Source: Candidatus Rifleibacteriota bacterium
GTDB lineage: Bacteria; Muiribacteriota; Ozemobacteria; Ozemobacterales; Ozemobacteraceae
Length of the DNA stretch: 64,000 nt
Reading direction: 5' to 3'
NCBI GenBank assembly: GCA_012517355.1
Contig: JAAYVD010000120.1
Span: 1 to 64,000 of the forward strand
The notes beneath the pieces are model-generated. The model did no database searches. It saw only the letters and a program-made list of their open reading frames with translations, and was not told the origin of the DNA. The translations under genes and the position numbers were made by a program. Of the stretch, positions 4,608-27,492 are shown one piece after another (the stretch's first letter is position 1; each line of letters opens with the position of its first letter).

Positions 4608-5528
4608 TCAGGAAAGGGAAGGGGCCGCGATCTTCCCCGCCGCCCGGGCGAACTGAAGGCACGCTGTCCAGAGGGAGCCAGGGCGGGGGCGTCGCAGGAT
4701 GAGGCTCTTGACGAAGTCGAGGCCGATGCCCTGCAGCATGGTGACCAGGTAGGCCAGTTCGCGGCGGCGGGAGCGGGGGAGGGTGGGGAAGAGCAGCCGG
4801 CGGACGAGCTGGTCGCCCTCCCAGCGGTAGGCCAGATCGTAGAAATAGCGCTTGGCGCCGTTCCCGTCGTGATACCTGACCCCGTAGAGCGGGGCCGGGT
4901 GGTAGACCACCCGTGGCGATCGGAGGGCGCACCAGTAGAGCATGAAGAAATCGACGTCGTGGCCCGTCGCGCCGAGGCGTTCCTCGACCTGGCGGTACTG
5001 CGGGGTGGCGATCATCGCCTTCGCTTCGGCGGTTGAGAGCGTGTAGGCGTTCGGGTTGGACGCCGGCAGGATCTGGAACCGCCGCGCCATGTCCCGCAGT
5101 TCCTGCACCGCGAAGAACCGCGGCTCTGCCTCGACCTGGGCGGGGCGCGGGATCGCCCCCTTGAAGTTCACCCCCGCCGCGACCACCACCCGGCAGTCGG
5201 GGAACCGCTCCAGCAGACCCCTGATCGTCGGCAGCGCCCAGGGGAACAGCACATCGTCGGACATCAGGAACTTGAACCAACTCCCTCGCGCCTCCTCGAC
5301 GCAGCGGCGCCAGTTGGGAACCATGCCGACGTTGGTGTCGTTGCGGAAGACCCGCACCCGCGGGTCGGTCAGCCCCTGCAGGTATTCCCAGGTGCCGTCG
5401 GTGCTGGCGTTGTCGACCACCACCAGTTCGAAGTCACGGTCGGTCTGCGCCAGCACGCTCTCGACCGCGTCGCGCACCGCCTGCGCCCGGTTGTAGACCG
5501 GGATGCCCACCGTGAAGAACGGGCTCAT
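4608..5528 (-). CDS. Family 2 glycosyltransferase
   Basis: A 306-residue GT-A enzyme starting MSPFFTVGIPVYNRAQAVRDA. FELVVVDNASTDGTWEYL is the nucleotide-binding region (residues ~31-48) and FKFLMSDDVL near residue 85 is the metal-binding DxD-like site. It transfers a sugar from a nucleotide donor to a lipid-linked glycan at the cytoplasmic face; donor and acceptor are unknown. The ATG at 5528 overlaps the stop of the upstream reductase (ATGA). It is the last gene of the leftward polysaccharide run. The C-terminus is basic and may sit on the membrane. Confidence 0.85.
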   Translation of the reverse strand: MSPFFTVGIPVYNRAQAVRDAVESVLAQTDRDFELVVVDNASTDGTWEYLQGLTDPRVRVFRNDTNVGMVPNWRRCVEEARGSWFKFLMSDDVLFPWALPTIRGLLERFPDCRVVVAAGVNFKGAIPRPAQVEAEPRFFAVQELRDMARRFQILPASNPNAYTLSTAEAKAMIATPQYRQVEERLGATGHDVDFFMLYWCALRSPRVVYHPAPLYGVRYHDGNGAKRYFYDLAYRWEGDQLVRRLLFPTLPRSRRRELAYLVTMLQGIGLDFVKSLILRRPRPGSLWTACLQFARAAGKIAAPSLS

Positions 5529-6613
5529 TCCCCCTCCCGCCAAGGTTCCCGCTGGAAGATCCGCCGGATGCCCTCCTCCAGGCCGATCTGGGGGGCCCAT
5601 CCGGGCAAGGGCGTGAACCGCGTCCAGGGCACCATCACCTCGCGCTTCCGGTAGGGGCGCGCGCCCCACTCGACCGGCACAGGCTTTCCCGACACCGCGC
5701 CGAACGTCTCGACCAGGTCCCGCAGCCGGAGCCGCCGCCCCGCCGACACCCCAAACTCAGGCCCGGTCGCAGACTGCCCGACCGGAAGGGCGGGCGGGTG
5801 GGGCCCCTCGCCGGCGATCGCGTCCCCGGTGCCCTGGGGCCCCGTGGCCGTGCCGGCCACCAGGTCGATGGCCCGCGCGAAGGCGGCCACCACGTCGTCG
5901 ATGTAGACCAGGTCGATCAGCTGCTCGCCGGCCGACATCCGCAGCGTCTCACCCCTCGCCGCCGCCTGCCGCAGCGCCTTGAACAGCTTCGGCCGCCGGT
6001 CGCCCGGGCCGTAGGTGTCGAACAGTTTCAACGTCACCCGCCGCATCCCGTGCGCCTGCGCGTAGAACTCGGCGATGTCGTCGAACGCCTTCTTCGTCGC
6101 CGCGTACAGGCAGACCGGGTTGTATGCCGCGTCGTGGAAATGCTCCCAGCTCGTGCCGGTGTTGACCAGCCGCCGCACCCCGGCCAGCGCCATCGCCTCG
6201 AGCAGCACCGTTCCGAACTGCACGTTGGTGGTGATCAGCGGCCCGATCTCCTCCGGCTTGTGCTCGGCGATGAACAGCGAGGCCAGGTGCACCACCACAT
6301 CGGGCCTGGCCGCCGCCATGAACGCGAACAGCTCGTCGGGCCGGTCGCGGAAGGAAAACACCTCGACCCCTCCCCGGCGGGAGCCCGCGGGGAGTGCTTC
6401 GGGAGCCCGGCCACCAGGGCCGGCCTCGTGAACCGCGGGCGCCATGGATGGCGCTTCTCCGCGGGCCCGGCCCAGCAGATCGGCAATCGCCGCCCCATTG
6501 GCCCCCGCCCTCTCCACGATCGAGACCCGCTTCCCGGCCCCGACCAGGTGCCGGGCCAGATGCGACCCGACGAACCCGAACGCCCCGGTCAGCAGAACGT
6601 GATTGGGGGTCAT
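5525..6613 (-). CDS. NAD(P)-dependent reductase, CDP-abequose/paratose synthase-like
   Basis: An extended SDR with GAFGFVGSHLA at the N-terminus (cofactor loop, residues 10-20) and LYAATKKAFDD (YxxxK) after LVNTGTSWEHFHDAAYNPV. That NTGTSW...YNPV.LYAATK block, followed by LKLFDTYGPGD, is the pattern I know from CDP-abequose/paratose synthases, which reduce the C4 ketone of CDP-3,6-dideoxy-4-ketohexose. The upstream CDP-3,6-dideoxyhexose genes support this. Two Pro/Gly-rich insertions (about residues 53-82 and 237-265) lengthen it to 362 residues. Which epimer it makes cannot be told. Confidence 0.7.
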   Translation of the reverse strand: MTPNHVLLTGAFGFVGSHLARHLVGAGKRVSIVERAGANGAAIADLLGRARGEAPSMAPAVHEAGPGGRAPEALPAGSRRGGVEVFSFRDRPDELFAFMAAARPDVVVHLASLFIAEHKPEEIGPLITTNVQFGTVLLEAMALAGVRRLVNTGTSWEHFHDAAYNPVCLYAATKKAFDDIAEFYAQAHGMRRVTLKLFDTYGPGDRRPKLFKALRQAAARGETLRMSAGEQLIDLVYIDDVVAAFARAIDLVAGTATGPQGTGDAIAGEGPHPPALPVGQSATGPEFGVSAGRRLRLRDLVETFGAVSGKPVPVEWGARPYRKREVMVPWTRFTPLPGWAPQIGLEEGIRRIFQREPWREGE

Positions 6614-6730
6614 GGGCGGCTCTCCGGGCGGGCCTGGCCCGGGAAACGGGGCAGGGTCGGTGGCATGATGGCTGGGATAGGATGCGGCATGGCGAGCGGT
6701 TCAGGGGCCTTTCCGTCCATGATACCTCAT

Positions 6731-7199: not shown

Positions 7200-7256
7200 C
7201 AGGATACCACGCGGCGTCCGTCCGTTTCAGCCACGAATGGCGGGTGGCCCACCCCT

Positions 7257-7832
7257 TCAAGGGGATCGCCGGCCTGTCCCTTCCCCCCCCTCGTAGGTGA
7301 ACGGCGAGGCGAACCCGGCCAGGGTGGGGAACGCCGCGTCGCGCTTCGACAGGATCGGCGCCTGCACCGGCCACTCGATGCCCGCCGAATCCCAGCGGAT
7401 GCCCTTGTCGCAATCCGCCGCATGGACGGCCGTCATCCGGTACAGCATCACCGCCCCGTCCGACAAGGCGCAGAACCCGTGCGCGATGCCGGCCGGCAGG
7501 TAGACCAGGGTGCCGGCCGCCCCGTCCAGGGTCAGCGTCAGGTGCTGCCCGTACGTCGGGGAACCCCGCCGCAGGTCGAGCAGCACGTCGAAGATGCGCC
7601 CCTCGATGCAGGTGACCAGCTTGTTCCCGTGCGCCGGCGGCACCTGGAAATGCAGCCCGCGCACCACCCCCCGCCGCGACATCGAGTAGAAATCCTCGAC
7701 GAACACGTCGTCGATGCCCATCTCCCGGAACGACGGCGCGTGGTAGGTCTTGACGAACCGCCCCCGCTCGTCGTCGAAGACGAACGGCGTGATGACCCGG
7801 CAGCCGGGAAGGGAAAGATCGGCGATCTTCAT
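7257..7832 (-). CDS. dTDP-4-dehydrorhamnose 3,5-epimerase family protein (second copy)
   Basis: A 191-residue cupin of the RmlC/RfbC family: DERGRFVKTYHAPSF, RRGVVRGLHFQVPP (the catalytic-base His is in RGLH, near residue 61), GIAHGFCALSD, and a YRM segment with the general-acid Tyr near 131. It ends in the normal IEWPVQAPILSKRDAAFP tail. It differs clearly from the RfbC at 26038-26613 and sits next to the CDP-sugar and aldolase/TPP genes. It may epimerise a CDP-linked or branched 4-ketosugar rather than the rhamnose precursor (inference). Confidence 0.8.
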   Translation of the reverse strand: MKIADLSLPGCRVITPFVFDDERGRFVKTYHAPSFREMGIDDVFVEDFYSMSRRGVVRGLHFQVPPAHGNKLVTCIEGRIFDVLLDLRRGSPTYGQHLTLTLDGAAGTLVYLPAGIAHGFCALSDGAVMLYRMTAVHAADCDKGIRWDSAGIEWPVQAPILSKRDAAFPTLAGFASPFTYEGGEGTGRRSP

Positions 7833-7843
7833 GCCGCCACGGC

Positions 7844-8899
7844 TCAGGCCTGCGCCTGGTTCCAGGCGATCGTCCGCCGGATCGCGGCCAGCAGGGGGAA
7901 CCGTCGTTGCAGCCCGAGCGTGCTCTCGGCCAGCGTCACATCGGGCACGAAGCGGGTGGCCTGGAACCGCGAGGCGGTCGCCAGGTTGCGCTCGATCTTC
8001 GGCCGCCGCGACAACTGGTCGGCGATCAGGTCGGCCAGGTCCTTCAGCGTGACCGGCTCCGGACTGCCCACGTTGTAGGCGTGGCCGATCTGCCCCTCGA
8101 GCAGCATGGCATACAGCCAGCAGGCCAGGTCGGCCCCGTACAGGTAGCTGCGCACCGTCTCGCCGTCGCCCTGGATGCGGATCGGCCCGCCCAGCAGCGC
8201 GTCGCGCACGAAGTTGTTGATCGCCCACGGCCGGTCGAGCAACTGGTACGGCCCGATGAAGGCGAACGGCCGCGCCACCACGATCGGCAGCCGGTGCTGG
8301 CTGCGGAAGCCCGCGCAGACGGTCTCGGCCATCCGCTTCGACTCGGTGTAACAGGAGGCCACCGACCCGAACTCCGCCCGCCCGGCGAAACTCTCCGGCA
8401 TCCGCGGCAGGTCGAGCGGCTGCCCGCCGCAGACCAGACCGGAACTCAGGTGCAGCACCCGCTTCAGCGCCGGCAGCCGGGCCGCCGCGTTCAGCACCGA
8501 CCGGCAGCCGCGCACGAAGATGTCCATCGTCGACAGCGGGTCGGTGGCGTGGAACCGGTTGTCCGGCGTCCCGGCGGCGTGGACCAGGAGCGTCACCTCG
8601 GGCGGGAACTCCTGCACGTTGCGCACGTCCATCTTCAACAGCCGGATGTCCTTCCGGCCGGCCAGGTGCGGGGCTTTCCCGGCAAAGTCCGACTCCTGGC
8701 GCGACAGCAGGATCATGTGCAACCCGAACCCGTGCTCGTCGTTGAGCCAGGCGCCCAGCTCGGCCAGCCAGGTGCCGACGAAGCCCGTGCCGCCGGTCAC
8801 CAGCAACGTCTCGCCGCGCAATCCGGCCAGGGCCGCCGGGCCGTTGGGGAACAGGGTCGCGCAGTCCTCGCGGGTGATCTCCTGCTTACGGATGTCCAC
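7844..8899 (-). CDS. NAD-dependent epimerase/dehydratase family protein
   Basis: A 351-residue extended SDR with LLVTGGTGFVGTWLAELG near residue 35, LHLSSGLVCGG, CYTESKRMAE (YxxxK) and VRSYLYGADLACWLYAML. It is clearly paralogous to the protein at 15987-17318 (shared RSYLY.ADLA.WL and AYNVGS..PV). The exact substrate is unknown. In this operon it could reduce or epimerise the branched sugar, a job done by YerF in yersiniose synthesis (family analogy only). Its 3' end lies 11 bp before the epimerase gene and it overlaps the aldolase gene by 14 bp. Confidence 0.75.
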   Translation of the reverse strand: MDIRKQEITREDCATLFPNGPAALAGLRGETLLVTGGTGFVGTWLAELGAWLNDEHGFGLHMILLSRQESDFAGKAPHLAGRKDIRLLKMDVRNVQEFPPEVTLLVHAAGTPDNRFHATDPLSTMDIFVRGCRSVLNAAARLPALKRVLHLSSGLVCGGQPLDLPRMPESFAGRAEFGSVASCYTESKRMAETVCAGFRSQHRLPIVVARPFAFIGPYQLLDRPWAINNFVRDALLGGPIRIQGDGETVRSYLYGADLACWLYAMLLEGQIGHAYNVGSPEPVTLKDLADLIADQLSRRPKIERNLATASRFQATRFVPDVTLAESTLGLQRRFPLLAAIRRTIAWNQAQA

Positions 8900-9923
8900 G
8901 GTTCTTCCCCCCCTTGTCGGCCAGCTCGATGGCCACGTCGATGATCAGGTCCTCCTGGCCGGCCACCGCCCGGCGCCGGCCCAACTCGAAGAACACGTCC
9001 CGCGGGTCGACCGCGTATTCCTTCGCCACCCGCTCCACGTGCTTGGCGAACCCCGAGAACACCCCGGCCAGCCCGCTCACCAGGCTGATTCCGCGGATCG
9101 ACGGCACCGTCGTGATGACCTCCCGTTCGGCCACCGCCACCGCGTCCAGGATCCCGTAGAGGTCGACCCCGGTCGCGAACCCCGCCTTCTGCAACACCCC
9201 GACCATCACCTCGATCGGCGCGTTGCCGGCCCCGGCCCCGAACCCGCGGGCCGTGCCGTCCAGGATCGTCGCCCCGTGGCGGGCGGCCTCCAGCGCGTTG
9301 GCCACCGCCATCCCCAGGTTGTTGTGGGAATGGAACCCGACCGGGATCGACAGGTGCTCGACCAGGAACCGCACCTTCTCCGCCACGTCCTCGGGCAGGT
9401 AGGCGCCGGCCGAATCCATCAGGATGACGCCCTCGGCCCCGTATGACTGCATCTTCCGGCTCTCCTCGAGCAGGGTCTCCTTCGGGGCCATGTGGCTCAT
9501 CATCAGCACCCCGAACGTCTCCTTGCCGCTCTCGCGCGCGAAGCCGATCAGGCGCTGGGTGGTGTCCGCCTCGGTGCAGTGGCTGGCCACCTTCACCACG
9601 TCGGCGCCATCCTGGATCGCCGGCTTCAGGTCGTGGTTGATCGTCGCGAACCCGGGGATCACGAAGACTCCCAGCCGCGTCCGGCTCAGGCACGGCCGGA
9701 CGGCCCGCAGCAGGGTGCGGTCGTCCGTGGCGGCCAGTCCGACCTGCAACGAGCTGGCCCCCAGGCCGTTGCCGTGGCCGATCTCGAGGATGCCGATCCC
9801 CGCCTTCTCGGCGGCCCGGGCATAGACTTCCATCTGGGCCGCGGTCAGCTGGTGGGCCACGGCGTGACTGCCGTCACGCAGGGTCACGTCGCAGATCAGG
9901 ATCGGTTTCGTCGTCGGGTTCAT
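8886..9923 (-). CDS. 4-hydroxy-2-oxovalerate aldolase-like enzyme
   Basis: A 345-residue TIM-barrel aldolase of the MhpE/DmpG/BphI group. The N-terminus CDVTLRDGSHAV carries the Arg-Asp pair and His of the active site (residues 16-20), and GFHSHNNLGMAVAN holds the metal-binding HxH. The C-terminus has the communication-like helical domain (VFFELGRRRAVAGQEDLIID). The family reversibly splits 4-hydroxy-2-oxovalerate into pyruvate and acetaldehyde and works as a complex with the acylating acetaldehyde dehydrogenase, which is encoded immediately upstream with a 4-bp overlap. Its place among sugar genes is unusual. Confidence 0.88.
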   Translation of the reverse strand: MNPTTKPILICDVTLRDGSHAVAHQLTAAQMEVYARAAEKAGIGILEIGHGNGLGASSLQVGLAATDDRTLLRAVRPCLSRTRLGVFVIPGFATINHDLKPAIQDGADVVKVASHCTEADTTQRLIGFARESGKETFGVLMMSHMAPKETLLEESRKMQSYGAEGVILMDSAGAYLPEDVAEKVRFLVEHLSIPVGFHSHNNLGMAVANALEAARHGATILDGTARGFGAGAGNAPIEVMVGVLQKAGFATGVDLYGILDAVAVAEREVITTVPSIRGISLVSGLAGVFSGFAKHVERVAKEYAVDPRDVFFELGRRRAVAGQEDLIIDVAIELADKGGKNRGHP

Positions 9924-10831
9924 GCCGCTCCCTCCCGGTCGCGGGGCGCCGGCGCCCCCAGCAGTTTCCTGGCGAACTCCTCGGCCATGGCCATCGCCGC
10001 GCAGTTGATGATGTCGAGGTTCCCCGCATACTTGGGCAGGTAGTCACCCATGCCCTGCACCCGCACCATCACCATGATCCGGCCGTTCTCGTAGATCGGC
10101 GGGATCACCAGTTGGTAGCCGGGAACGTAGGCCTGGAGCTTTGCGACCATCGCCCGCACCGCGGCATCGAGCCGCGGCAGGTCGGGGTTGGCCACCTTGG
10201 CGAACACCGTGGTCTGCATGTCGATGCAGGGCTGCGCCGGGTTCAGCACCAGGATCGCCTTGGCCCGGCCGCAGCCGGTGAACTTCTCCAGCGCTTCCTG
10301 GGTCGTCTCGATGTATTCGTCGATGTTGATGCGCGTGCCGGGCCCCGCGCTGCGCGAGGCGATGCTCGACACCACCTCGATGTACTCGACCTTCCCCAGC
10401 GTCTGGCTGATCGCGTAGGCGAGCGGCGTGGAACACTGGCCTCCGCAGGTGACCATGTTGACGTTCTGCGCCTGCAAGCCTTCCTGCAGGTTGACGGCCG
10501 GCACGCACATGGTGCCGACCTTGGCCGGGGTCAGGTCGATCACGATCTTGCCCTGCTTCTGCAGGATCGGCCAGTGCACCAGGTGGTCGCGCGCCGAGGT
10601 GCAGTCGAAGACCAGCTTGCAGCAGTCGGGGTTGCGCACGAAGGCGTCGATGCTCTGGTCGGAGATGCGCACCCCCAGGCTGCTCGCCTTGGCCATGCCG
10701 GTCGACTGCAGGTTGCGGCCGACGAACAGGGCGCATTCGAGAACCTCCGAGCGCAGCACCTTGACCAGCAGGTCGGTGCCGATGTTGCCGGTCCCCAGGA
10801 TGGCGACCGGAAGCTTGCGGGAAACATCCAT
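9920..10831 (-). CDS. Acetaldehyde dehydrogenase (acylating)
   Basis: A 303-residue protein of the MhpF/DmpF/BphJ family. VAILGTGNIGTDLLVKVLRS is the NAD-binding site, MVTCGGQCSTPLAYAI has the catalytic Cys (about residue 129), and ARINID-like GTRINIDEYIETTQEAL and PPIYENGRIMVMVRVQG are the usual later blocks. The reaction is acetaldehyde + CoA + NAD to acetyl-CoA + NADH, reversible. Directly coupled to the aldolase gene, it probably channels acetaldehyde. In this context the reverse direction, making acetaldehyde from acetyl-CoA for an aldol step, is an inference. Confidence 0.9.
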   Translation of the reverse strand: MDVSRKLPVAILGTGNIGTDLLVKVLRSEVLECALFVGRNLQSTGMAKASSLGVRISDQSIDAFVRNPDCCKLVFDCTSARDHLVHWPILQKQGKIVIDLTPAKVGTMCVPAVNLQEGLQAQNVNMVTCGGQCSTPLAYAISQTLGKVEYIEVVSSIASRSAGPGTRINIDEYIETTQEALEKFTGCGRAKAILVLNPAQPCIDMQTTVFAKVANPDLPRLDAAVRAMVAKLQAYVPGYQLVIPPIYENGRIMVMVRVQGMGDYLPKYAGNLDIINCAAMAMAEEFARKLLGAPAPRDREGAA

Positions 10832-10891
10832 TTCAGTTCACTCCTGGGTTGCAAGGGCTCCGGATCCGGCCTCGGCGAGGCCTGCCCAACT

Positions 10892-12694
10892 CTAGCAGCC
10901 TTTCAGCGGCTTGACAATCATGTTCTGCCGGAACTCCTCGCGGTCGAGAAAGGGGAACATGTCCTCGAGTGGCTTGGAAACCATGCTTCCGTCCTCGAGC
11001 TTCACCGACGAAACGGTGGGGACGATCGCCTGGTCAGGCGATCCGAACACCTCGCAGACGACCGGGCCGGGGGTGGCCAGCACCTTCCGGATCGTCCGGT
11101 CGAGGTCGCGGTGGCGGCGGACCGCGCAGTAGTCGAGGCCGTAGGCCCTGGCCAGGCGCCCCAGGTGGGGAAGCGAGACCCCGGAGGCGGCCCCCTCGCC
11201 CAGCCGCCGGCCGGCGAAGAAGCGGTCCTGGGTGAACCGGATCGACAGGTAGCCCTGGTTGCTGATGACGAACAGTTTGACCGGCAGCCGGTGGTGGACG
11301 ACGGTCTGCAGTTCCTGGACGTTCATCTGCAGTGACCCGTCGCCGGTGATGGCGACCACCCGTCCGTTCCGGGCCTCGGCGGCCCCGATGGCGGCCGGCA
11401 GGGAATACCCCATCGTGGCGATGCCCCCGGACGTGAGGAGGATCCCCTGCCGGAGCCCCTGGGCCACCGCGTAATAGACCGACCCGGCGTCGCTGACCAC
11501 GACGTCGTCCGGTCGGATGCAGGCCGACAGCCGGTCGATGAACTGGTAGAGGTTGATGCCGTTGCGGTCTTCCTGCGCGTAGTCGGGAAGGCAGACCGGA
11601 TACTGCCTCAACCATCGCCGGCAGGTGCGCAGCCAGCCTGATGGCCGGGCCTTCGTCACAGCCCCCGCGTTCGCCTGACGCAGGAACTCACGGGCATCGG
11701 CATTGATATACAGGTCGATGGCGATGGTCTTCTTGCGATGGGCGGTCCGGTCGATGTCCACCACGACCTTGACGGCCTCGCGGGCGAACTGGCCGTATTC
11801 GTAGCCGATGGTGCCCACGTGCAGGCTGGTGCCGATGGCGATGACCAGATCGGCGTTTTGCACCGCGAGATTGCCCGCCCGGGAGCCCTTGATCCCGACC
11901 GGGCCGATCCGACAGCGGTGGCGGTGGCCGATGGCGTTCGCCCCGAGGAAGGAATGGACGACGGGAATCCCGTGGGCATCGGCGAACCGCTCGAGATCCG
12001 GGCCGGCGCGGGCGATGGCCACCCCCTGGCCGGCCAGGATGACCGGTCGTTCGGCCTGCCGCAGCAGATCCTGGAACTTCCGCATCTCGGCCGCGACCGG
12101 CCTGGTCTTGAGCGCGGGCCGCTCCACGGCCGGGAAGCCGCGCAACCGGCGGGGGTCGACCAGGGCTCCCTGGACATCGAGCGGGACGTCGATCCAGACC
12201 GGCCCCGGCCGGCCGGTGGTCGCCAGGTGGAAGGCCTTTTCCAGTTCGTACCGCACCTCGGCCGGGTCGTCGAGCATCACCGCATACTTGGTGAGGGATT
12301 GCACGACCGGCAGGATGTCGACCTCCTGGACCCCGAACTGCCGAAGCCCGGGGATGCCGGCCAGGCGGACGGTCTCCCGGCGCTTGGCCTGCCCTGAGAC
12401 GAACAGGCAGGGAACCGAGTCCAGCCAGGCCCCGACCAGCCCCGTGATGGCGTTGGTGGCCCCGGGGCCGGTGGTGAAGAACCCCGCCCCGACCCCCCCC
12501 GTGGTGCGCGCGTAGGCCTCCAGGGCCATGGCCGCCGACTGTTCGTGGTGCGTGCAGACCGCCTTCACCTCGGGGCACTGGGCCAGGGCGTCGGTCAGGA
12601 ACATGATGCCCCCGCCCGACACCAGGAACACGTGTCGCACCCGGGCGGTGTCCCGCAGAAACCGGACGATGAAGTCGGCGACCCGGATCTTCAT
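10892..12694 (-). CDS. Thiamine-diphosphate enzyme, acetolactate-synthase-like (polysaccharide type)
   Basis: A 600-residue three-domain TPP enzyme. The Pyr domain has the catalytic Glu in CTHHEQSAAMALEAYAR (about residue 51). The middle domain has DLVIAIGTSLHVG. The PP domain has GDGSLQMNVQELQTVV (GDG...N, from residue 451). The tail GSMVSKPLEDMFPFLDREEF is typical of the subgroup found in LPS/O-antigen clusters. The nearest characterised role is YerE, a TPP flavoenzyme that attaches a two-carbon unit from pyruvate to CDP-3,6-dideoxy-4-ketohexose (family knowledge). Embedded among CDP-3,6-dideoxyhexose genes, a branching ketol-transferase is my best guess. Confidence 0.82.
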   Translation of the reverse strand: MKIRVADFIVRFLRDTARVRHVFLVSGGGIMFLTDALAQCPEVKAVCTHHEQSAAMALEAYARTTGGVGAGFFTTGPGATNAITGLVGAWLDSVPCLFVSGQAKRRETVRLAGIPGLRQFGVQEVDILPVVQSLTKYAVMLDDPAEVRYELEKAFHLATTGRPGPVWIDVPLDVQGALVDPRRLRGFPAVERPALKTRPVAAEMRKFQDLLRQAERPVILAGQGVAIARAGPDLERFADAHGIPVVHSFLGANAIGHRHRCRIGPVGIKGSRAGNLAVQNADLVIAIGTSLHVGTIGYEYGQFAREAVKVVVDIDRTAHRKKTIAIDLYINADAREFLRQANAGAVTKARPSGWLRTCRRWLRQYPVCLPDYAQEDRNGINLYQFIDRLSACIRPDDVVVSDAGSVYYAVAQGLRQGILLTSGGIATMGYSLPAAIGAAEARNGRVVAITGDGSLQMNVQELQTVVHHRLPVKLFVISNQGYLSIRFTQDRFFAGRRLGEGAASGVSLPHLGRLARAYGLDYCAVRRHRDLDRTIRKVLATPGPVVCEVFGSPDQAIVPTVSSVKLEDGSMVSKPLEDMFPFLDREEFRQNMIVKPLKGC

Positions 12695-13482: not shown

Positions 13483-13525
13483 TCTGGGTTGCCTCCCTGT
13501 CGGTAGGTTGGTGGCGGTTCTGGTC

Positions 13526-13612: not shown

Positions 13613-13630
13613 CCCCAGGGAACAGGACGG

Positions 13631-15175
13631 TCACCTGGCGGGGCCCCCCCGGACGCGGCGGACGAGAGCCCGGAACGTGTCCTTCTCCGCGGGGTCCAGG
13701 GCGCCCAACACCCAGCAGGCCAGAAAGAACACGGCTGCGATCAGGACCATCGTTCCCACCACCATCGGCAGACCGGCCAGCCGGGGCGTGACGAACCACC
13801 ATGCCGGCAGCCCGACCGCCAGGCCGATGATGACCAGCCGGCCGGCCTGCAAGCCGAGCCGCGCCAGCGAAAACGGGGCCTTCCAGTGGCAGAGGGCCAG
13901 GTAGAAGGCCACCGTCAGCACCACGCTGAGCGCCTTCCCCGCCGCCGCCCCCTCGATGCCGTAGGGTCCGATCAGCAGGACATACGCCACCAGCCCGCTC
14001 ACCCCCGCCACCATCCCCCCGAACGTCAGGCCCTGGGGATAGTTCAGCCCGCCCAGCACGTAGGAAGGCAGCGCGGTCAGCCCGGAAAGGCCGAACGAGA
14101 CGGTCAGCAGCAGCAGCACGGTCGTCGACCGCTCGGCCATCTCGGCCGACACCCAGGATGACAGCAGCGGGCGCGCGACCACGGCCAAGGGCACCGCCCC
14201 GGACAGGGCGATGAACAGGCTGAGGTTGAAGCCGCGCAACACCAGGGTTTCCAATTGCCGGGCGTCTCCTTTGCGGGCAAGTTCGCTGGCCATCGGGAAG
14301 ACGAACTCCATCATCTTCCCGTTGACCTGCTGGATCACGCTCGCGATCTGCTGCGGAACGAGGTAGAACGTGAGGGCGGACGTCCCAATGTACGTGCCGA
14401 TCAGCATGCTGTCAAGCTGGGTGAACAGCAGGGCGAACATCCGGAAGCCCACCATGTAGACCCCGAAGGCGACCGTGCGCCGGAACATCCCCGCGTCGAA
14501 GCCGGGACGCAGGGAAACGCCGGGCAGCAGCCGCCGGCAGCCCAGGCCGTAGAGCCCGAGCGCCAGGAAGGTGGCCAGCAGGTTGGCCCAGACCACGCCG
14601 GTCAGCCCCTTCCCCCACCAGACCGCCGCCACCGCGCCCAGCGTGGTGACCGTGCCGTAGACCACGCCGATGCCGTTCACCACGTCGAACCGCTGCAAGC
14701 CCGTCGGGATCGCCGACCCCCACCACATCAGCATGCTGAGCAGGAAGCCCAGCCCCGTCAGCCGGAACACCCAGGTGGCCTCGGGCAGGATGGCGTCGGG
14801 AATGGTGAACAGCGACCCGGCCAGCCAGGGCGCCAGGAGCCAGATGGCCACCCCGCCGGTCAGTCCCATGCCCAGGTAGGTCGTCAGCGTGGTGCCCAGC
14901 AGGCGGGACATGCGGTCGGTTTCGGCCCCCGCGTGGTATTCGGCCACGAACTTGGCCACCGCCCCGTTCAGGCCGAGGTCGAGCAGGGCGAAATACCCCG
15001 AGATGGTCAGCATCAGGCCGCGGATGCCGTAGGCGTCGTTCCCCAGGACCCGGATCAGGTAGGGGGTGGTGGCGAAGGCGAGCAGGACCGGCCAGCCCCA
15101 TGCCACCGCGCTGGAGAGCAGGTTGATGAGAGTCCGCTCGCGGCGGCCCTCGGCTACCGGGGCGGCTGTAGGCAC
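13631..15175 (-). CDS. Polysaccharide flippase, Wzx/MATE-like
   Basis: A roughly 514-residue multi-pass membrane protein. It begins with LINLLSSAVAWGWPVLLAFATTPYLIRVLGNDAYGI, the typical Wzx opening (PYLIR.LG...YG), and has about 12-14 hydrophobic segments, including the pair SVVLTVAFYLALC and VVGTMVLIAAVFFLACWVLG near the end. Wzx proteins move undecaprenyl-linked oligosaccharide units across the inner membrane. An ATG at 15247 would overlap the glycosyltransferase gene by 94 bp; I prefer the GTG at 15175, which follows AGAAGG. It fits an O-antigen or capsule assembled by the Wzx/Wzy route. Confidence 0.82.
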   Translation of the reverse strand: MPTAAPVAEGRRERTLINLLSSAVAWGWPVLLAFATTPYLIRVLGNDAYGIRGLMLTISGYFALLDLGLNGAVAKFVAEYHAGAETDRMSRLLGTTLTTYLGMGLTGGVAIWLLAPWLAGSLFTIPDAILPEATWVFRLTGLGFLLSMLMWWGSAIPTGLQRFDVVNGIGVVYGTVTTLGAVAAVWWGKGLTGVVWANLLATFLALGLYGLGCRRLLPGVSLRPGFDAGMFRRTVAFGVYMVGFRMFALLFTQLDSMLIGTYIGTSALTFYLVPQQIASVIQQVNGKMMEFVFPMASELARKGDARQLETLVLRGFNLSLFIALSGAVPLAVVARPLLSSWVSAEMAERSTTVLLLLTVSFGLSGLTALPSYVLGGLNYPQGLTFGGMVAGVSGLVAYVLLIGPYGIEGAAAGKALSVVLTVAFYLALCHWKAPFSLARLGLQAGRLVIIGLAVGLPAWWFVTPRLAGLPMVVGTMVLIAAVFFLACWVLGALDPAEKDTFRALVRRVRGGPAR

Positions 15176-15990
15176 GATGCCTTCTGCCACAGGTCGAACA
15201 TCTCCTGCCGCTTCCGTCGGTAGTCCTCGGGTGCGCGGGAGAAGCATTTTTCCCAGATGAAGGCGAACCGCATCAGGTAATACGACAGGAACAGACTGGC
15301 CAGGGCCACCCCGCGCCAGCCGGCCAGCCAGGTGCGGCGCAGCAGGAGCCGGCCGGCGGCCGAGACGGCGTCGAGGAAGGCCGGCTTGACCGGCCGGTCC
15401 TTCGGCCAGAGCCGGGCATCCGCGCGCCAGTAGCGGAAATGCCGCTCGCAGAGGCTCTCCATGGTTTCATGGGTCAGGTGGTGGATCCCCTGGTCGGGAG
15501 GCAGGTCCACCGCTCCCTTGCGCAGCCCGGACAGGTCGAGCGCCTTGTGGGCGTCGTCGTCGCGGATGCGGATGGCCGACTTGCGGACGAAGGCGGAATG
15601 GAAGGTGGAATACCAGGGAGACCATGGTTCGCTGATGCCCAGCACATACCGCTGGTAGGGGACGTTGAAAAAGTCGGCGGGTTCGTCGGCCCCGCGGGCG
15701 TCGATCTCGCGCAGGGCCTTCGCCAGTGCCGGATGCAGCACGTCGCTGGCGGTGATGATCAGGATCCAGTCTCCGCTCGCCTGTTGCATGTATTTCAGCT
15801 CGCCCGGGTCGTACTCGGTGTCGGTGATGCCGATGACCCGTGTCTTGGGAAACGACCGGATGATCTCGAGCGACCGGTCGGTGCTGCCCTTGTCGAGCAC
15901 CAGGATCTCGTCGACCCAGCCCAGGCAGGCCAGGGTGGAGGGCAGCCGCCGCTCCTCGTTGTAGTTCGGGATGAACGCGGTGATGCTCAT
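15154..15990 (-). CDS. Family 2 glycosyltransferase (WaaE/KdtX-like)
   Basis: A 278-residue protein: MSITAFIPNYNEERRLPSTLACL, then WVDEILVLDKGSTDRSLEII, then GDWILIITASDVLHPA. The start and layout fit the WaaE/KdtX-like GT2 group, but the usual acidic metal site (DADE) reads TASD, so catalysis or metal use may differ. The C-terminal third has two hydrophobic helices (GVALASLFLSYYLMRFAFIWE) for membrane association. The ATG overlaps the stop of the preceding SDR gene by 4 bp. Confidence 0.78.
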   Translation of the reverse strand: MSITAFIPNYNEERRLPSTLACLGWVDEILVLDKGSTDRSLEIIRSFPKTRVIGITDTEYDPGELKYMQQASGDWILIITASDVLHPALAKALREIDARGADEPADFFNVPYQRYVLGISEPWSPWYSTFHSAFVRKSAIRIRDDDAHKALDLSGLRKGAVDLPPDQGIHHLTHETMESLCERHFRYWRADARLWPKDRPVKPAFLDAVSAAGRLLLRRTWLAGWRGVALASLFLSYYLMRFAFIWEKCFSRAPEDYRRKRQEMFDLWQKASCLQPPR

Positions 15991-17318
15991 GCGGATCCTC
16001 CAGGGGTGGCCCGGACGGGGGCGGTTTCGCGGGGGGTGGGGTCGCGGGGATTGGGTGCGCGGGGGTCGGCTCCGCCCGCCTGGTGCCAGGCGACCGTGCG
16101 GCGGATGCCGTCGTCGAGGGGGATGCCGACGTCGAGGCCGAGTTGCCGCCGGGCCTTGTCGATCGACGGCACGTAGCGGGGCGCCGGGCCGGGGCCTGGC
16201 GGTTGGCATACCTCGATGGCGGGAGACGGGGAAAAGGCCGCCGCGACCCGGTCGGCCAGTTCGCGGATGGACACCGGCTGGTCGGAACCCACGTTGTAGG
16301 CCTCGCCGGGGGCGCCCCGCAGCAGGATCGTCCAGAGCCAGACGGCGAGGTCGGCGGCGTAGAGATAGGACCGCACCGGCCGGCCGTCGCCGGCCACCAC
16401 GATCGGCCCGCCCGCCCGCCCGGCCCGGATGAACTGGGCGGCGGCGAAATGCTGGTCGAGGGGAAGGTGCGGGCCGACGAACGCGTAGCACCGGGCGGCG
16501 GTGAACGCCCGGCCCGGTTCCCGGCCCCAGACCGCGCCCAGAAACTCGGCCGCCCGCTTGCCCAGCCCGTAGGCGGCGGCGGGGTCGAACGGGTCGGGAG
16601 CCCCGGGGTGGGTCTCGGCGACCAGCGGCAGGTCGGGCGGCTGCGGCCCGTAGACCGCGCCGGAGCTAACGAACAGGAACCGCCGCGTGCCGGCACCGGC
16701 CGCGAGGTCGAGCACCCGCCGCGTGCCGGCGGTGATGGTGTCGAACATCACCAAAGGGGCTTCCAGGTTCAACTTCACGCTGGCCTCGGTCGCGCCGTGG
16801 ATGACGAAAGGGAAGCGGCCGGCGGGCGGGGTGAAGGCGGTGATCTCCCCCTGGTGCCAGCGGACGGCCGGATGGTCACCCAGGTGCGGGAACCGGGCGC
16901 GGAACCGCGCCGGATCGCGCGACAGCACGGTGACCCGCGCCCGCAGGTCCAGCCGGTCGTTGGCCGCCAGAAACGATTCCAGCAGCCAGCGGCCGAAGAA
17001 CCCGGTGCCGCCACTCAGGAACAGGTCCTGGCCGGCCAGGTCGGCCCACAACGGGGCCGTGCGCTCGAGGATCCAGTCGAGATCGGCCCCCGGCACGGGG
17101 CGGCCGGGGGCGTCCGGCGGACAAGGCGCGGCGGCCGGTGAACCCTCCGATGCTTTGGCTGGGACCGCGGCCGGCCGAGGATCCCCCGATGCCGTGCCCC
17201 GGCCTGCCGTCACCGGCGCCTCCCCCGGCTCCGTGGCCCGGGGCGCCGGTCCGGCCGGCGTGGGGGGCTGGACCCGTCCCGGGGCCCTGGGGGCTGAAGA
17301 ACGCGGATGGCGGCTCAT
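15987..17318 (-). CDS. NAD-dependent epimerase/dehydratase with a disordered N-terminus
   Basis: The enzyme part starts around residue 78: LFLSGGTGFFGRWLLESF, FLFVSSGAVYG, AAYGLGKRAAEFL (YxxxK) and VRSYLYAADLAVWLWTIL. It is paralogous to the SDR at 7844-8899. The first ~75 residues and last ~25 are Pro/Ala/Arg-rich and look disordered. The ATG at 17318 overlaps the reductase stop by 4 bp, which supports the long start despite the odd leader. The substrate is probably a CDP-linked dideoxysugar, given the neighbours; a YerF-like reduction is possible but unproven. Confidence 0.75.
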   Translation of the reverse strand: MSRHPRSSAPRAPGRVQPPTPAGPAPRATEPGEAPVTAGRGTASGDPRPAAVPAKASEGSPAAAPCPPDAPGRPVPGADLDWILERTAPLWADLAGQDLFLSGGTGFFGRWLLESFLAANDRLDLRARVTVLSRDPARFRARFPHLGDHPAVRWHQGEITAFTPPAGRFPFVIHGATEASVKLNLEAPLVMFDTITAGTRRVLDLAAGAGTRRFLFVSSGAVYGPQPPDLPLVAETHPGAPDPFDPAAAYGLGKRAAEFLGAVWGREPGRAFTAARCYAFVGPHLPLDQHFAAAQFIRAGRAGGPIVVAGDGRPVRSYLYAADLAVWLWTILLRGAPGEAYNVGSDQPVSIRELADRVAAAFSPSPAIEVCQPPGPGPAPRYVPSIDKARRQLGLDVGIPLDDGIRRTVAWHQAGGADPRAPNPRDPTPRETAPVRATPGGSA

Positions 17319-18145
17319 TCCCAGGCGTCGAGCCGGACCTGGTCGGCGGGCAGGCCCCGGGCTTTCAGTTGGTCGGAGAGGGCGGTCAGCATGACCGGCG
17401 GCCCCGACAGGTAGAACACGCTGGCGGCGGGGTTCGGCAGCAGGGGCCAGACGGCCTCGAGGTCGATGCGGCCGGAGAGGGCGATCGGCTGACGACCGGC
17501 CGCAGGTGCGGCGGTGCGGGGGGCGGCCGGTGCGGCGGCCGGCGTCGCGCCCGTCGCGCCCGCCGGCCCGTCGCTCGAAGCGGTTGCCGGCGATGCGCCC
17601 GGCTCCCCGGCACTGTCGCGCTCGGCGAAGAAGCAGGCCTGGAACGCCGGCACCGCCGCCAGCCGGTCGAGAATTTCGGCGCGGAACAGGTGCAGGGCCG
17701 GGGTGCGCGCCCCGTAGACCAGGAACACCGACCGCGCCTGCGCCGGGGTCAGCGCGCCCAGGAAGGCGGTGAAGGCGCTGATGCCGGTGCCGCCCGCGAT
17801 CAGCACCACGTCACGGTCGGGGGCGATGACGAACTCGCCGTAGGGCAGTTTCGCCCAGACCTCGAGGCCCGGCGCGAGCACGCTTTCCATGCGGGTCGTG
17901 TATTTTCCCTTCACCGAGTAGCAGACCTGGAGCCTCTTGCGGTCGGACGGGGAACTGGCGATCGAGAAGACCCGCGACTCTGGCCAGAACCCGGCCGGGT
18001 CGAACGGGTCGACGGTCAGGTGCAAAAACTGCCCTGGCTTGAAGGCCGGCACCGGCGACTGCGGCTGCAAAAAAACGGAATAGACCCGCTCGCCGTGGTC
18101 GACGACCGACTCGACCGTGCACCTGATCTTGCGCGGCATGCTCAT
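17315..18145 (-). CDS. Flavin-dependent NAD(P)H reductase, DdhD/AscD-like without ferredoxin domain
   Basis: A 276-residue ferredoxin-reductase-type protein. [11 protein letters not shown] and [13 protein letters not shown] (flavin site, residues 56-67) are followed by [10 protein letters not shown], then [13 protein letters not shown] (NAD site, 114-125) and [12 protein letters not shown]. It sits directly after the DdhC-type dehydrase gene with a 4-bp overlap, so it should be the E3-type electron donor for C3 deoxygenation. Known E3 proteins carry an N-terminal [2Fe-2S] domain; here translation starts at the flavin domain. A Pro/Ala-rich insert covers residues ~178-220. Confidence 0.78.
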
Positions 18146-19461
18146 CGGCCGGCCTTCCCCGTGACGAACCCGCGGATCGTCGCCAGCACGTGCTCGCGCA
18201 TCGGCGCGGTCAGGCCGGGATACACGCCGATGAAGAAGGTGTTCGAGGTGATCAGGTCGGTGTTCGTGAGCGTGCCGACCACGCGGTGCTCGATCGTCTC
18301 GTAGGCCGGGTGCCGCAGCAGGTTGCCGCAGAACAGGTTGCGCGTCTCGATCTTCCCCGCCTCGATGGCCCCGACCAGGTCGGCGCGGCTGAACGGGGCG
18401 TCGGGGCGGACCGTCACCACGAACCCGAACCAGGACGGGTCGGCCTTCGCCGGCGCCACGGGCAGGATCAGGTAGGGGGCGAGATCGGCCAGGCCGGCCG
18501 ACAGGGCGGCGTGGTTGGCCTGGCGGGCCGCGATGAAGTCGGGCACCTTCTGCAGCTGGGCCACGCCGATGGCCGCCTGCATGTCGGTGACCTTCAGGTT
18601 GTAGCCGATGTGGCTGTAGACATACTTGTGGTCGTAGCCGGCGGGGAGAGTGCCGAACTGCTGGGTGAACCGCTTGCCGCAGGTGTTGTTCTCGCCGCCC
18701 GAGCAGTAGCAGTCGCGGCCCCAGTCGCGGAAGCTGTGGGCGATGCGGCCCAGGTCCTCGTCGTCGGTGGCCACCGCCCCGCCTTCGCCCATCGTGATGT
18801 GGTGCGCCGGGTAGAAGCTGAAGGTCGACAGGTGGCCGAAGGTGCCGCACAGCTTTCCCTCATACCGGCTGCCCAGGGCGTCGCAGTTGTCCTCGATCAG
18901 CCACAGCCCGCGCCGGTCGCACAATTCGCGCACTTCCTTGACGGGGAAGGGAACGCCCATCGTGTGGGCGATCATGACCGCGCGGGTGCGCGGCGACAGG
19001 GCCGCCTCGATCTTCTCGAGCGTCGGCACGTAGGTGCCCAGCTCGACGTCGACGAACACGGGAATCGCCCGGTTCTGGATGATCGGGTTGACCGTGGTGG
19101 GGAAGCCGGCGGCCACGGTGATGACCTCGTCGCCCGGCCGGATCGCCCGGTCCTTCAGCTTGGGCGAGGTCAAGCTCGAGAAAGCCACCAGGTTGGCCGA
19201 CGAGCCGGAGTTGACCAGCAGCACCTGCTGCAGGCCGAGGAAATCGGCCAGGCCGGCCTCGAACTCCTCGGAGAAGCGGCCGGCGGTCAGCCAGAAGTCG
19301 AGCGAGGCGTCGACCAGGTGGACCAGCTCCTCGTCGTCGAAATGGCGGCCGGCGTAGCGGACCGGGTCTTCCCCGGGCCGGAAGGGCTGGGTCGGCGTGG
19401 CCCGGTGGAACTCGCGGACCAGCTCGAGGATCTGCGTGCGGATCTGTTTCTTGTCAGGCAT
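18142..19461 (-). CDS. rfbH: CDP-6-deoxy-4-hexulose-3-dehydrase (E1, RfbH/DdhC-type)
   Basis: A 439-residue fold-type I PMP enzyme. The lysine normally found in aminotransferases is replaced by histidine in [16 protein letters not shown] (H220/H221), the hallmark of this dehydrase. Cysteines at 193, 251, 253 and 261 ([21 protein letters not shown]) reproduce the C-X57-C-X1-C-X7-C iron-sulfur motif of the family. It removes the C3 hydroxyl of CDP-4-keto-6-deoxyglucose together with the downstream reductase. This is the committed step to 3,6-dideoxyhexoses and fixes the pathway assignment for the operon. Confidence 0.93.
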
Positions 19462-19549
19462 GGGTGTCAGGCTCCTGGGCGGGTGGCCGGCCTTCTGGCG
19501 GCGGCTCCCGCCGTGGGTCGGAAGATGCGTGGTCGGGCGGTGGACTGGC

Positions 19550-20866
19550 TCACGGGTGGCCGGTGGTGCTGGTTGCGGCAGGTGTCGCCCAGGCGAGGCC
19601 CTGGGAACGTGCCGCCGCCACGTAGGTATCGAGCTGACCGGCGGTCAATTCGCGCAAAGCTTCGGGCCGGTTGTCACGGTTGGCTCCGGCATACCAGGCG
19701 ACGGTCTCGCGGATGGTGACGGCGAAGTCGTAGACGGGGTGCCATCCCAGGGCGACCTGGGCCTTGTCGATCGACAGATGGAGCAGGCCGGCCTCGTGGA
19801 CGGCGCGCGGGTCGGTACGGTCCTCCCAGGAACCCGGCCAGTGGCGCAGGATTTCGGTGACCAGGGCCTCGACCGGGCGGTTCGACTCCCGCAGCGGGCC
19901 GAAGTTGAAGGCGCCATCGAGGCCCTCACCGTCAGTGGCCGGAGACGGGGCAGGGGAGGGGAAGCGAGAAGCGGTCGGGCCCACAGCCCCGGACGGGCCG
20001 GGGGCGGTTCCCGGGCCTGCGGTCGCTCCCGGACGGGCCGGCCCCGCCCCCTTCGGTGAAACCGACTGGGCGGCCGTGCCCGGGCCTGCCGTTTCGGCAT
20101 CCGGTGCGACCGTGGTCGGGGAATGGCTGCCCAGGCGGGCGGCCAGCCACAGGTACCCGCCCAGGGGCTCGAGCACGTGCTGCCACGGCCGGGTCGACCG
20201 CCGGTTGCGCACGACGATCGGTTGCTTCCGCTGCAGGGCGCGGATGCAGTCGGGGACGATGCGGTCCTTCGCCCAGTCGCCGCCGCCGATCACGTTGCCG
20301 GCGCGCACGCTGGCGATCTTCACGGGATGCCCGCGGAAGAAGGACCGGCGCCAGGCCGAGATGGCGATTTCGGCGCCTGCCTTGCTCGAACTGTAGGGGT
20401 CGTGCCCGCCCAGCGGGTCGCATTCGCGGTATCCGTAGACCCACTCGCGGTTCTCGTAGCACTTGTCGGTGGTGATGAACACCGCCGGGCAGGGCTTCGT
20501 CAGCCTGCGCAGCGACTCCAGGACGTGGATGGTGCCCATCACGTTGGTGTCCCAGGTGGCGACCGGAACTTCGTAGGAATCCCGCACGAGGGGCTGCGCG
20601 GCGAGGTGGAAGACGGCGTCGGGGTTGGCGGCCGCGACGACCTTTTCCAGGTGCCCGGGGTCGCGGATGTCGCCGTGGTGGTGCTCGACGAGAGTCTCCA
20701 ATTGCAGGCCGGCGAACAGGGAAGGGGTGGTCGGCGGGTCGAGCGCGTAGCCGACGACCCGCGCCCCGAGCCGGTGCAGCCAGAACGCCAGCCACGAGCC
20801 CTTGAAGCCGGTGTGGCCGGTGACCAGGACGGTCTTCCCGCGAAAGAAATCCAGAAACCCGCTCAT
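19550..20866 (-). CDS. rfbG: CDP-glucose 4,6-dehydratase with a large disordered insert
   Basis: An extended [23 protein letters not shown] at the N-terminus, [20 protein letters not shown] (catalytic Thr/Asp/Lys near 132-135) and [10 protein letters not shown] (YxxxK, Y158/K162). It converts CDP-glucose to CDP-4-keto-6-deoxyglucose. The family is normally about 360 residues; this one is 438 because a Pro/Ala/Gly-rich block (about residues 247-316) is inserted between the WLAARLG helix and AFNFGP. A ribosome site AGGAAGG precedes the ATG, just after the cytidylyltransferase stop. Confidence 0.92.
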
Positions 20867-20873
20867 GGCCTTC

Positions 20874-21644
20874 CTACCAGACCTTCCAGGGGGCCTGGCC
20901 CGCGGTCCAGAGTTCGTCGAGCTTGATCTTGTCGCGGAGGGTGTCCATCGGCAGCCAGAAACCGTCGTGCTTGAAAGCCTTCAGGTCGCCGTCGGCCGCC
21001 AGCCGCTCGAGAGGGGTGCGCTCCCAGATGGTGCGGTCGTCCTTGACCAGATCGAGAACGGCGGGCTCGAGCACGAAGAAACCCCCGTTGACGTAGGCGC
21101 CGTCGCCGCTCGGCTTTTCCATGAAGGAACGGACGGTCTGGGGGTCGGCCATCTCGAGGGCCCCGAACCGGCCGGGGGGCTGCACCGCGGTCAGGGTGGC
21201 CTTCCTGCCGTGACTCTTGTGGAAGGAAACCAGTTGCTCGATGTTGACGTCGGACACGCCGTCGCCGTAGGTCATCAGAAACGGCTCGCGGCCGAGATGA
21301 TGGGCCACCCGCCTGAGGCGGCCCCCGGTCATCGTCTCGTCGCCGGTGTCGACCAGGGTGACCTTCCAGGGCTCGGCGTGGCTCTGGTGGGTGATCATCT
21401 TGTTCTGCTTGAGGTCGAAGGTGACGTCGGACGTGTGCAGGAAGTAGTTCGCGAAGAACTCCTTGATCATGTAGCCCTTGTACCCGCAGCAGATGACGAA
21501 ATCGTGGTAGCCGTACGACGAGTAGATCTTCATGATGTGCCACAGGATCGGCCGGCCACCGATCTCGACCATGGGCTTGGGCCGGACGCCGGTCTCTTCG
21601 CTGAGCCTGGTGCCGAGACCCCCGGCAAGGATGACGACTTTCAT
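20874..21644 (-). CDS. rfbF: Glucose-1-phosphate cytidylyltransferase
   Basis: A 256-residue nucleotidyltransferase. MKVVILAGGLGTRLSEETG and RPKPMVEIGGRPILWHIMKIYS form the nucleotide site, FVICCGYKGYMIKEFF follows, and the middle has the usual TGDETMTGGRLRR segment of CTP-specific enzymes. It makes CDP-glucose, the first step of the CDP-3,6-dideoxyhexose route, and stands directly upstream of the dehydratase gene (7-bp gap). I start at the ATG at 21644 that begins the signature, not at 21701. Confidence 0.93.
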   Translation of the reverse strand: MKVVILAGGLGTRLSEETGVRPKPMVEIGGRPILWHIMKIYSSYGYHDFVICCGYKGYMIKEFFANYFLHTSDVTFDLKQNKMITHQSHAEPWKVTLVDTGDETMTGGRLRRVAHHLGREPFLMTYGDGVSDVNIEQLVSFHKSHGRKATLTAVQPPGRFGALEMADPQTVRSFMEKPSGDGAYVNGGFFVLEPAVLDLVKDDRTIWERTPLERLAADGDLKAFKHDGFWLPMDTLRDKIKLDELWTAGQAPWKVW

Positions 21645-21697
21645 GGAACCATCTCCCTCAGCGGTGCCCGGCCTGCCTGGAAGAGGCCGGCCACCGG

Positions 21698-26613: not shown

Positions 26614-26617
26614 GCGT

Positions 26618-27490: not shown

Positions 27491-27492
27491 CC

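Follow-up and report, generated by a model that had tools for sequence, protein, structure and literature searches.

A predicted operon for a C4-branched CDP-3,6-dideoxyhexose combines a YerE-like enzyme with 2-oxoacid aldolase genes in Candidatus Rifleibacteriota

We analyzed a 64,000-nucleotide stretch of DNA from a Candidatus Rifleibacteriota bacterium (the whole stretch is called the window below) and found a run of genes in which RfbF, RfbG and RfbH are joined by a YerE-like thiamine diphosphate (ThDP) enzyme and by the dehydrogenase-aldolase pair MhpF and MhpE. With moderate confidence, we read this run as an operon for a cytidine diphosphate (CDP)-3,6-dideoxyhexose that carries a carbon branch at C4, with MhpF/MhpE providing the donor of the branch and an erwiniose-type sugar of ten carbons as the product. 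The evidence is observed directly in the identity and order of the genes, their recurrence elsewhere and the residue patterns of their products.

In the pathway that we infer for the source organism, RfbF, RfbG, RfbH and an E3-like reductase would, judging from their family assignments, produce CDP-3,6-dideoxy-4-keto-D-glucose. MhpF would convert acetyl-CoA to acetaldehyde, and MhpE would join acetaldehyde and pyruvate to 4-hydroxy-2-oxopentanoate, probably of (4R) or mixed configuration. The YerE-like enzyme would then decarboxylate this acid and add the resulting 3-hydroxybutanoyl unit to the C4 ketone, after which SDR2, a short-chain dehydrogenase/reductase (SDR), would reduce the branch ketone. 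The arithmetic agrees with a ten-carbon product, as the acid minus CO2 adds four carbons to the hexose. The sugar would enter a surface polysaccharide through the neighboring glycosyltransferases and Wzx, and HpcH may be a second pyruvate aldolase that works with this ThDP enzyme by providing or modifying its donor.

A preliminary description of this DNA had placed RfbF, RfbG and RfbH in one co-directional run together with genes for two aldolases (HpcH/HpaI and MhpE-like), a ThDP enzyme, an MhpF-like dehydrogenase, an SDR and an RmlC-like epimerase. This was confirmed: the named open reading frames (ORFs) of the block are all intact and on the minus strand, and these assignments passed their family cut-offs. 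From ManC to the last glycosyltransferase, the run contains 18 genes:

25459-21698, minus strand: ManC, a GDP-fucose-synthase-like protein (445 bits, below the cut-off of 500) and Gmd, at the start of the run
20874..21701, minus strand: RfbF, glucose-1-phosphate cytidylyltransferase (NCBIfam equivalog TIGR02623, 452 bits against a cut-off of 300)
19550..20866, minus strand: RfbG, CDP-glucose 4,6-dehydratase (NCBIfam equivalog TIGR02622, 457 bits against 278)
18142..19461, minus strand: RfbH, CDP-4-keto-6-deoxyglucose 3-dehydrase, or E1 (NCBIfam PRK15407, 687 bits against 423)
17315..18145, minus strand: E3-like NAD(P)H-flavin reductase, presumed electron donor of RfbH (flavin reductase matches below cut-off; Pfam NAD_binding_1 only)
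15987..17318, minus strand: SDR1, extended SDR and paralogue of SDR2 (Pfam PF01370)
15154..15990, minus strand: family 2 glycosyltransferase (Pfam PF00535)
13631..15247, minus strand: Wzx-like polysaccharide flippase (Pfam PF13440/PF01943)
12691..13482, minus strand: HpcH/HpaI-family aldolase, first gene of the block (Pfam PF03328, 77 bits against 25)
10892..12694, minus strand: YerE-like ThDP enzyme, the predicted branching enzyme (closest structures JanthE and PpYerE)
9920..10831, minus strand: MhpF-like acylating acetaldehyde dehydrogenase (TIGR03215, 393 bits against 282; catalytic Cys kept)
8886..9923, minus strand: MhpE-like 4-hydroxy-2-oxovalerate aldolase with the DmpG communication domain PF07836 (TIGR03217, 372 bits against 286)
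7844..8899, minus strand: SDR2, extended SDR, predicted branch-ketone reductase
7257..7832, minus strand: RmlC-like epimerase, the second copy in the window (TIGR01221, 175.6 bits against 155.75)
5525..6613, minus strand: SDR3, NAD-dependent epimerase/dehydratase (Pfam PF01370)
4608..5528, minus strand: family 2 glycosyltransferase, last of the run (Pfam PF00535)

The genes had been described as largely linked by 4-bp overlaps. Such overlaps exist at seven of the 17 junctions, including HpcH–ThDP and MhpF–MhpE, but the wording was somewhat overstated: two overlaps are longer (14 and 94 bp), four gaps are at most 60 bp, among them the 60-bp gap between the ThDP and MhpF genes, and four are 88-643 bp, these figures depending partly on the start codons that we picked. 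The source genome comprises 184 contigs totaling 7.1 Mb, at 96% completeness.

The recurrence of the block was studied at 136 YerE-like loci besides the window, with L004 and L005 both counted although their ThDP enzymes are identical. A first set of 83 loci consisted of the best 80 of 86 from a genome-contig scan with the ThDP enzyme and three from the source genome and its relatives; a hold-out set of 53 came from other genome samples (57 matches minus four in genomes already used). Within 4.5 kb and on the strand of the ThDP gene, the first set contained 22 loci with MhpF and MhpE, 32 with a NeuB-family gene and nine with an HMGL-like gene, Pfam confirming the NeuB assignment on four and the HMGL-like assignment on five. 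No locus in either set contained two of these three modules, while the overlaps expected in the first set were 8.5 for MhpFE/NeuB, 2.4 for MhpFE/HMGL and 3.5 for NeuB/HMGL (Fisher p of 2.3e-6, 0.053 and 0.0093, respectively; neither the expectations nor the p values are corrected for kinship). The hold-out set had 17 NeuB, five MhpF+MhpE and no HMGL loci, and 30 were initially without a module. Among 17 of these 30 that were read, several contained a divergent HpcH/HpaI (four were checked, at 29-35 bits against the Pfam cut-off of 25) or a DAHP-synthase-like protein. With a limit of 7 kb, the 136 loci were divided into 52 with NeuB, 27 with MhpF+MhpE, 16 with divergent HpcH/HpaI, nine with HMGL, two with DAHP synthase and 30 with none, some of the last on short contigs; the references for divergent HpcH and DAHP synthase were chosen post hoc, once hold-out loci lacking a module had been inspected, and these counts are descriptive. 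Neither transketolase-like halves near some ThDP genes nor the weak relative of MhpE in L072 entered the module counts, and a guess from length that the HMGL-like proteins are HAD phosphatase fusions was not borne out by Pfam.

The modules are closely bound to the ThDP gene: all 137 module genes counted are on its strand and 105 of them lie within 1.5 kb. For MhpF and MhpE, the strand agrees in 55 of 55 genes; RfbF, RfbG and RfbH matches are on the opposite strand in 24 of 282. The order MhpF-MhpE-SDR2 is found in 20 of the 27 other MhpFE loci. A search of genomes for the block next to rfbFGH had been proposed with the preliminary description, and it bore out the association, 25 of the 27 loci containing at least two of RfbF, RfbG and RfbH. 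The block is thus not widespread without rfbFGH; the two exceptions are L009, whose contig starts 134 bases before the ThDP gene, and L019, which has 10-kb flanks on both sides. Cassette carriers with strain names include Paenibacillus nuruki (L014), Paenibacillus anaericanus (L019) and Lachnotalea glycerini (L032).

Among the module enzymes, MhpE, HpaI, NeuB and DAHP synthase are established to form 2-oxoacids through C–C bond formation, and by analogy the divergent members would do likewise. At three loci from a sample of the phylum of genome G067 (L198, L200 and L204), a YerE-like ThDP gene is accompanied by SDRs, a dehydroquinate-synthase-like gene and a divergent HpcH/HpaI, the last two confirmed with Pfam in L200; a carbocyclic branched sugar is possible there.

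Compared with solved structures, the ThDP enzyme of the window was closest to JanthE (PDB 8rph, 424 bits; PMC12188165), followed by PpYerE (5ahk, 248 bits) and acetolactate synthases (233 bits or less). Three TPP-enzyme domains exceeded the Pfam cut-offs, and the cut-off of the acetolactate synthase equivalog TIGR00118 was missed (347 against 538 bits). Its ThDP-binding motif is GDG, with G at JanthE's CDG position. By these similarities, the protein is a YerE-like enzyme, predicted to catalyze branching, that is nearer to YerE and JanthE than to acetolactate synthase, in agreement with the kinship to YerE suggested earlier. In a tree of 139 ThDP enzymes, the window and L178 fall in a set of 13 (support 98), itself nested in a set of 34 (support 98). 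The larger set includes the main group of 20 MhpFE enzymes and has 23 MhpFE-linked enzymes. The module labels require 25 changes on this tree, against a mean of 74 for shuffled labels.

These patterns also bear on the explanation that the ThDP enzyme uses pyruvate and creates a two-carbon, yersiniose-type branch, the aldolase and dehydrogenase genes serving some other purpose. YerE itself uses pyruvate (PMC12247030), and the 30 loci without a module within 7 kb fit such a donor. The strand and distance constraints on the module genes speak against it, however, as do the position of the window among the MhpFE-linked enzymes and the difference at position 121, which is F in PpYerE and V in the window; we consider the explanation improbable. 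The source genome contains a second YerE-like ThDP gene (L088, C106:70537-72315) that is 46% identical and adjoins a NeuB-family gene. No RfbF, RfbG or RfbH match was found in the 20-kb stretch around it, and it is possibly a second branched-sugar locus.

The MhpF/MhpE pair keeps conserved catalytic residues, and its MhpE differs from catabolic counterparts at a site known to control stereochemistry. The catalytic Cys of MhpF is present in 23 of 23 aligned cassette copies (those beside YerE-like genes), and the window MhpE, the single match to the hydroxyoxovalerate aldolase family in its genome, keeps the catalytic R16, D17 and H20 as well as the communication domain. At BphI positions 87 and 290, it has Phe, and the BphI-type Tyr-290 is absent. 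BphI makes and uses only (4S)-4-hydroxy-2-oxopentanoate; its Y290F and Y290S variants lose this control, and L87N/Y290F and L87W/Y290F cleave the (4R) form only (PMC3962088). For comparison, 14 plasmid stretches were taken from 280 matching records and 11 were counted; L091, L092 and L094, where the neighbors are not meta-cleavage genes and position 290 is F, C and F, respectively, were left out, and L099, one of the 11, lacks a clear catabolic neighbor. Position 290 is Phe in all 23 first-set cassettes, the window included, and in four of five hold-out cassettes, the fifth having Val (thus Phe in 27 and Val in one of 28 overall), and it is Tyr in the 11 comparison copies. At position 87, all 11 comparison copies have Leu; 26 of the 28 cassettes have His, Phe or Tyr there, and the other two have Leu. 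Only three of 330 ungapped columns show fixed differences between the 23 cassette and 11 comparison MhpEs, and position 290 is one of them. Given the lack of Tyr-290, (4R) or relaxed products are predicted for the cassette MhpEs; the product is probably of (4R) or mixed configuration and not the (4S) form of aromatic catabolism. The name erwiniose implies a matching configuration at the same carbon.

Position 290 also counts against MhpF, MhpE and HpcH being a catabolic remnant of the meta-cleavage type within or beside a polysaccharide operon. The MhpF and MhpE families are best known from meta-cleavage pathways, and catabolic plasmid copies too have MhpF before MhpE. Yet profile scans of the 18 genes found no match to a hydratase, a ring-cleavage dioxygenase or a muconate enzyme, position 290 is Phe, and the pair recurs beside YerE-like genes at about a fifth of the loci (27/136), making a remnant highly improbable. 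Two of the stretches left out of the comparison have contexts of their own: on a Streptomyces linear plasmid (L091, 6060-9311), a MhpF-MhpE pair with Phe-290 adjoins KAS III and an acyl carrier protein, a noncatabolic use, and on a Paraburkholderia plasmid (L094, 4108-9321), MhpF-MhpE, a dehydrogenase and a thiamine-pyrophosphate-binding protein lie close together.

HpcH reaches the cut-off of its family, PF03328, and not that of the HpaI equivalog (138 against 369 bits); its closest solved chain is 2v5j (127 bits). Across the 136 loci and the window, HpcH and MhpFE are the sole pair of modules to co-occur, in the window and in L178. The latter belongs to G307, a genome from a sample of the phylum to which the Pseudomonas genome G077 belongs. 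There, HpcH lies 10 bp 5' of the ThDP gene, and an SDR-like gene, MhpF, MhpE and SDR2 come next, with RfbF, RfbG and RfbH upstream; the HpcH-ThDP-MhpF-MhpE-SDR2 order of the window thus recurs with one SDR-like gene inserted. G307 was alone among the 299 genomes of that sample in having an HpcH match at 1e-45, and its ThDP gene was found by a separate search. Elsewhere, HpcH had no match at E 1e-3 among the ORFs of the first 83 loci and none at 1e-40 in 35 relatives, the source genome aside, and a relative at 1e-30 was found in four of 50 genomes searched (50 of the first 80 loci). HpcH as a general cassette gene was therefore rejected, and the opposite notion of HpcH as an oddity of the window was dropped once the G307 gene turned out to adjoin a YerE-like gene. 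The HpcH of the window is 34% identical to that of L178 and 33% to that of L105, where HpcH and the ThDP gene are on different contigs, and the three group weakly in a tree of eight (73/72). As the identity to L178 is no higher than that to L105, common descent of the HpcH/MhpFE pairing is not demonstrated. The two-aldolase mechanism suggested in the preliminary description is supported in part: it is the best available, and recurrence, strand, order and residues strengthen it, but the idea of the aldolases acting in series found no support.

Several observations weigh against the erwiniose-type pathway. HpcH has no role in its minimal scheme. Gmd is part of the same run, and the acceptor could for that reason be another 4-ketosugar. 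Position 290 of MhpE separates lineages as well as functions, and if cassette and comparison copies are separate lineages, Phe-290 could be inherited rather than selected. On the ThDP tree, the nearest relatives of the window, L221, L003 and L076, lack MhpFE, though the L003 contig is just 6 kb, and only two MhpFE/NeuB contrasts are independent, which is why we attach no statistical claim to differences between classes at pocket positions. Among 572 columns ranked by their separation of these two classes, positions 268, 121 and 293 are 7th, 15th and 20th, but 297 and 567, two of the five JanthE pocket positions, fail to separate them (286th and 415th). Finally, three residues of the pocket region set the window apart from most MhpFE-linked enzymes: positions 123, 268 and 567 are E, K and T in the window, L178 and L179 and G, Y and R/K in the other 25 of 28. 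The E, K and T combination also occurs in L144, whose contig spans 3 kb and has no module. E123 is usual in other module classes, unlike K268 and T567.

This pocket type suggests a different donor or another handling of the donor, and the K268/T567 difference is the main reason why we do not take 4-hydroxy-2-oxopentanoate as settled. The branching logic could be the same with HpcH, alone or together with MhpF/MhpE, making a longer or charged 4-hydroxy-2-oxoacid to which the ThDP enzyme is adapted, the branch then not being 3-hydroxybutanoyl. The residues shared by the window, L178 and L179 would fit this, as would the placement of HpcH beside MhpFE in the first two; positions 268 and 567 were picked by docking in JanthE, where changes of K567 raise the yield of bulky products (PMC12188165). 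L179, however, has the same residues and no HpcH 5' of its ThDP gene (the 3' side ends after ~300 bp), K or R at 268 is also found in relatives without MhpFE or HpcH, and the weak grouping and low identity of the HpcH proteins do not tie them together. We regard another donor as unlikely, although by no means negligible, and keep the erwiniose-type branch as our preferred reading.

Of the remaining genes, SDR1 and SDR2 are 38% identical over 325 columns, and the SDRs may perform the final reduction assigned to them earlier. SDR2 is the likelier branch-ketone reductase because its homologue lies 3' of MhpE in the 20 loci counted above. The RmlC-like gene is indeed an extra copy, as first described: another RmlC (26089-26601) and an RmlD are located further along the window. 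With these present, a role of the RmlC-like gene in rhamnose synthesis is disfavored, and its protein could epimerize a 4-keto intermediate. The RmlC and RmlD genes themselves (26089-28733) suggest rhamnose synthesis near the operon. RfbI-type E3 reductases have a plant-type 2Fe-2S domain. A Pfam scan found no such domain (Fer2) in the E3-like reductase of the window, and the L178 counterpart has Fer2, FAD and NAD domains; by eye, the window protein (17315-18145) contains an Ala-rich stretch. Far from the block, an ORF at 478-1194 resembles, by eye, a Uma2-family (DUF820) protein.

More broadly, and tentatively, since we hold it to be slightly less probable than its negation, we propose that YerE-like branching is modular: one C4-branching enzyme would be combined with one of several interchangeable 2-oxoacid modules (MhpF/MhpE, NeuB-like, HMGL-like, DAHP-synthase-like and two kinds of HpcH/HpaI), and the branch could be read from the neighboring gene. 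On this view, the window and L178 would represent a double-aldolase variant that has an active-site type of its own, and the MhpEs of the cassettes would be natural counterparts of the laboratory BphI variants with altered 4R/4S selectivity. More than 200 YerE-like enzymes have been predicted, the vast majority without a sugar structure (PMC12247030). Should the module next to the ThDP gene reveal the donor, many such sugars would be predictable from DNA, and JanthE would gain a specific donor candidate. Natural Phe-290 MhpEs would be ready-made catalysts to try for (4R)-4-hydroxy-2-oxoacids.

Known systems share parts of this arrangement. In yersiniose A synthesis, YerE acylates CDP-3,6-dideoxy-4-ketoglucose (PMC12247030), like the enzyme proposed here, but with pyruvate as the donor and a two-carbon branch, and PpYerE is clearly the more distant structure. 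DmpG–DmpF and BphI–BphJ match the window pair in families, communication domain and conserved Arg, Asp and His, whereas Tyr-290 and Leu-87 of BphI are both Phe in the window, whose pair is predicted to work in the synthetic direction with altered stereochemistry. HpaI, a class II pyruvate aldolase, shares its family with the window HpcH, which stays below the HpaI equivalog cut-off. Bradyrhizose of Bradyrhizobium is another ten-carbon O-antigen sugar (PMC9912281), attributed to an 11-gene cluster (PMC4743980) that we compared through its published description; the words "aldolase" and "acetolactate" are absent from the main text of PMC4743980, and a link to bradyrhizose gained no support from that source.

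The nearest solved relative, JanthE of Janthinobacterium sp. HH01, has CDG, Y268 and K567 in place of GDG, K268 and T567. It accepts 4-hydroxy-2-oxovalerate with benzaldehyde, and the same study states that its physiological substrates have yet to be identified (PMC12188165). The ThDP enzyme of L038 is 78% identical to JanthE and stands in the order ThDP-MhpF-MhpE-SDR2, so that MhpF/MhpE is a candidate source of the JanthE donor.

A 2025 review describes YerE-like enzymes as joining ketones to decarboxylated 2-oxoacids. One of them, the ThDP enzyme ErwE of Pectobacterium atrosepticum, is assigned to CDP-4-keto-3,6-dideoxyglucose; in vitro, with an analogue as the ketone, it favored 4-hydroxy-2-oxobutanoate, -pentanoate or -hexanoate and left pyruvate unused (PMC12247030). 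Erwiniose itself is a ten-carbon sugar (PMC8657720). Compared with the published description of this system, the window has additional HpcH and RmlC-like genes. The principle of a longer donor, on which the preliminary description built, is therefore already published for ErwE, and with longer donors established by ErwE and JanthE the novelty of the mechanism is reduced. Among the titles, abstract openings and passages covered in an open-access library, none linked MhpF/MhpE or HpcH to YerE-like genes, which does not prove that no such link has been published, and we claim no priority. Beyond the ErwE and JanthE precedents, the present analysis contributes the pattern of modules, the donor route proposed for JanthE, a stereochemical prediction and the double-aldolase variant.

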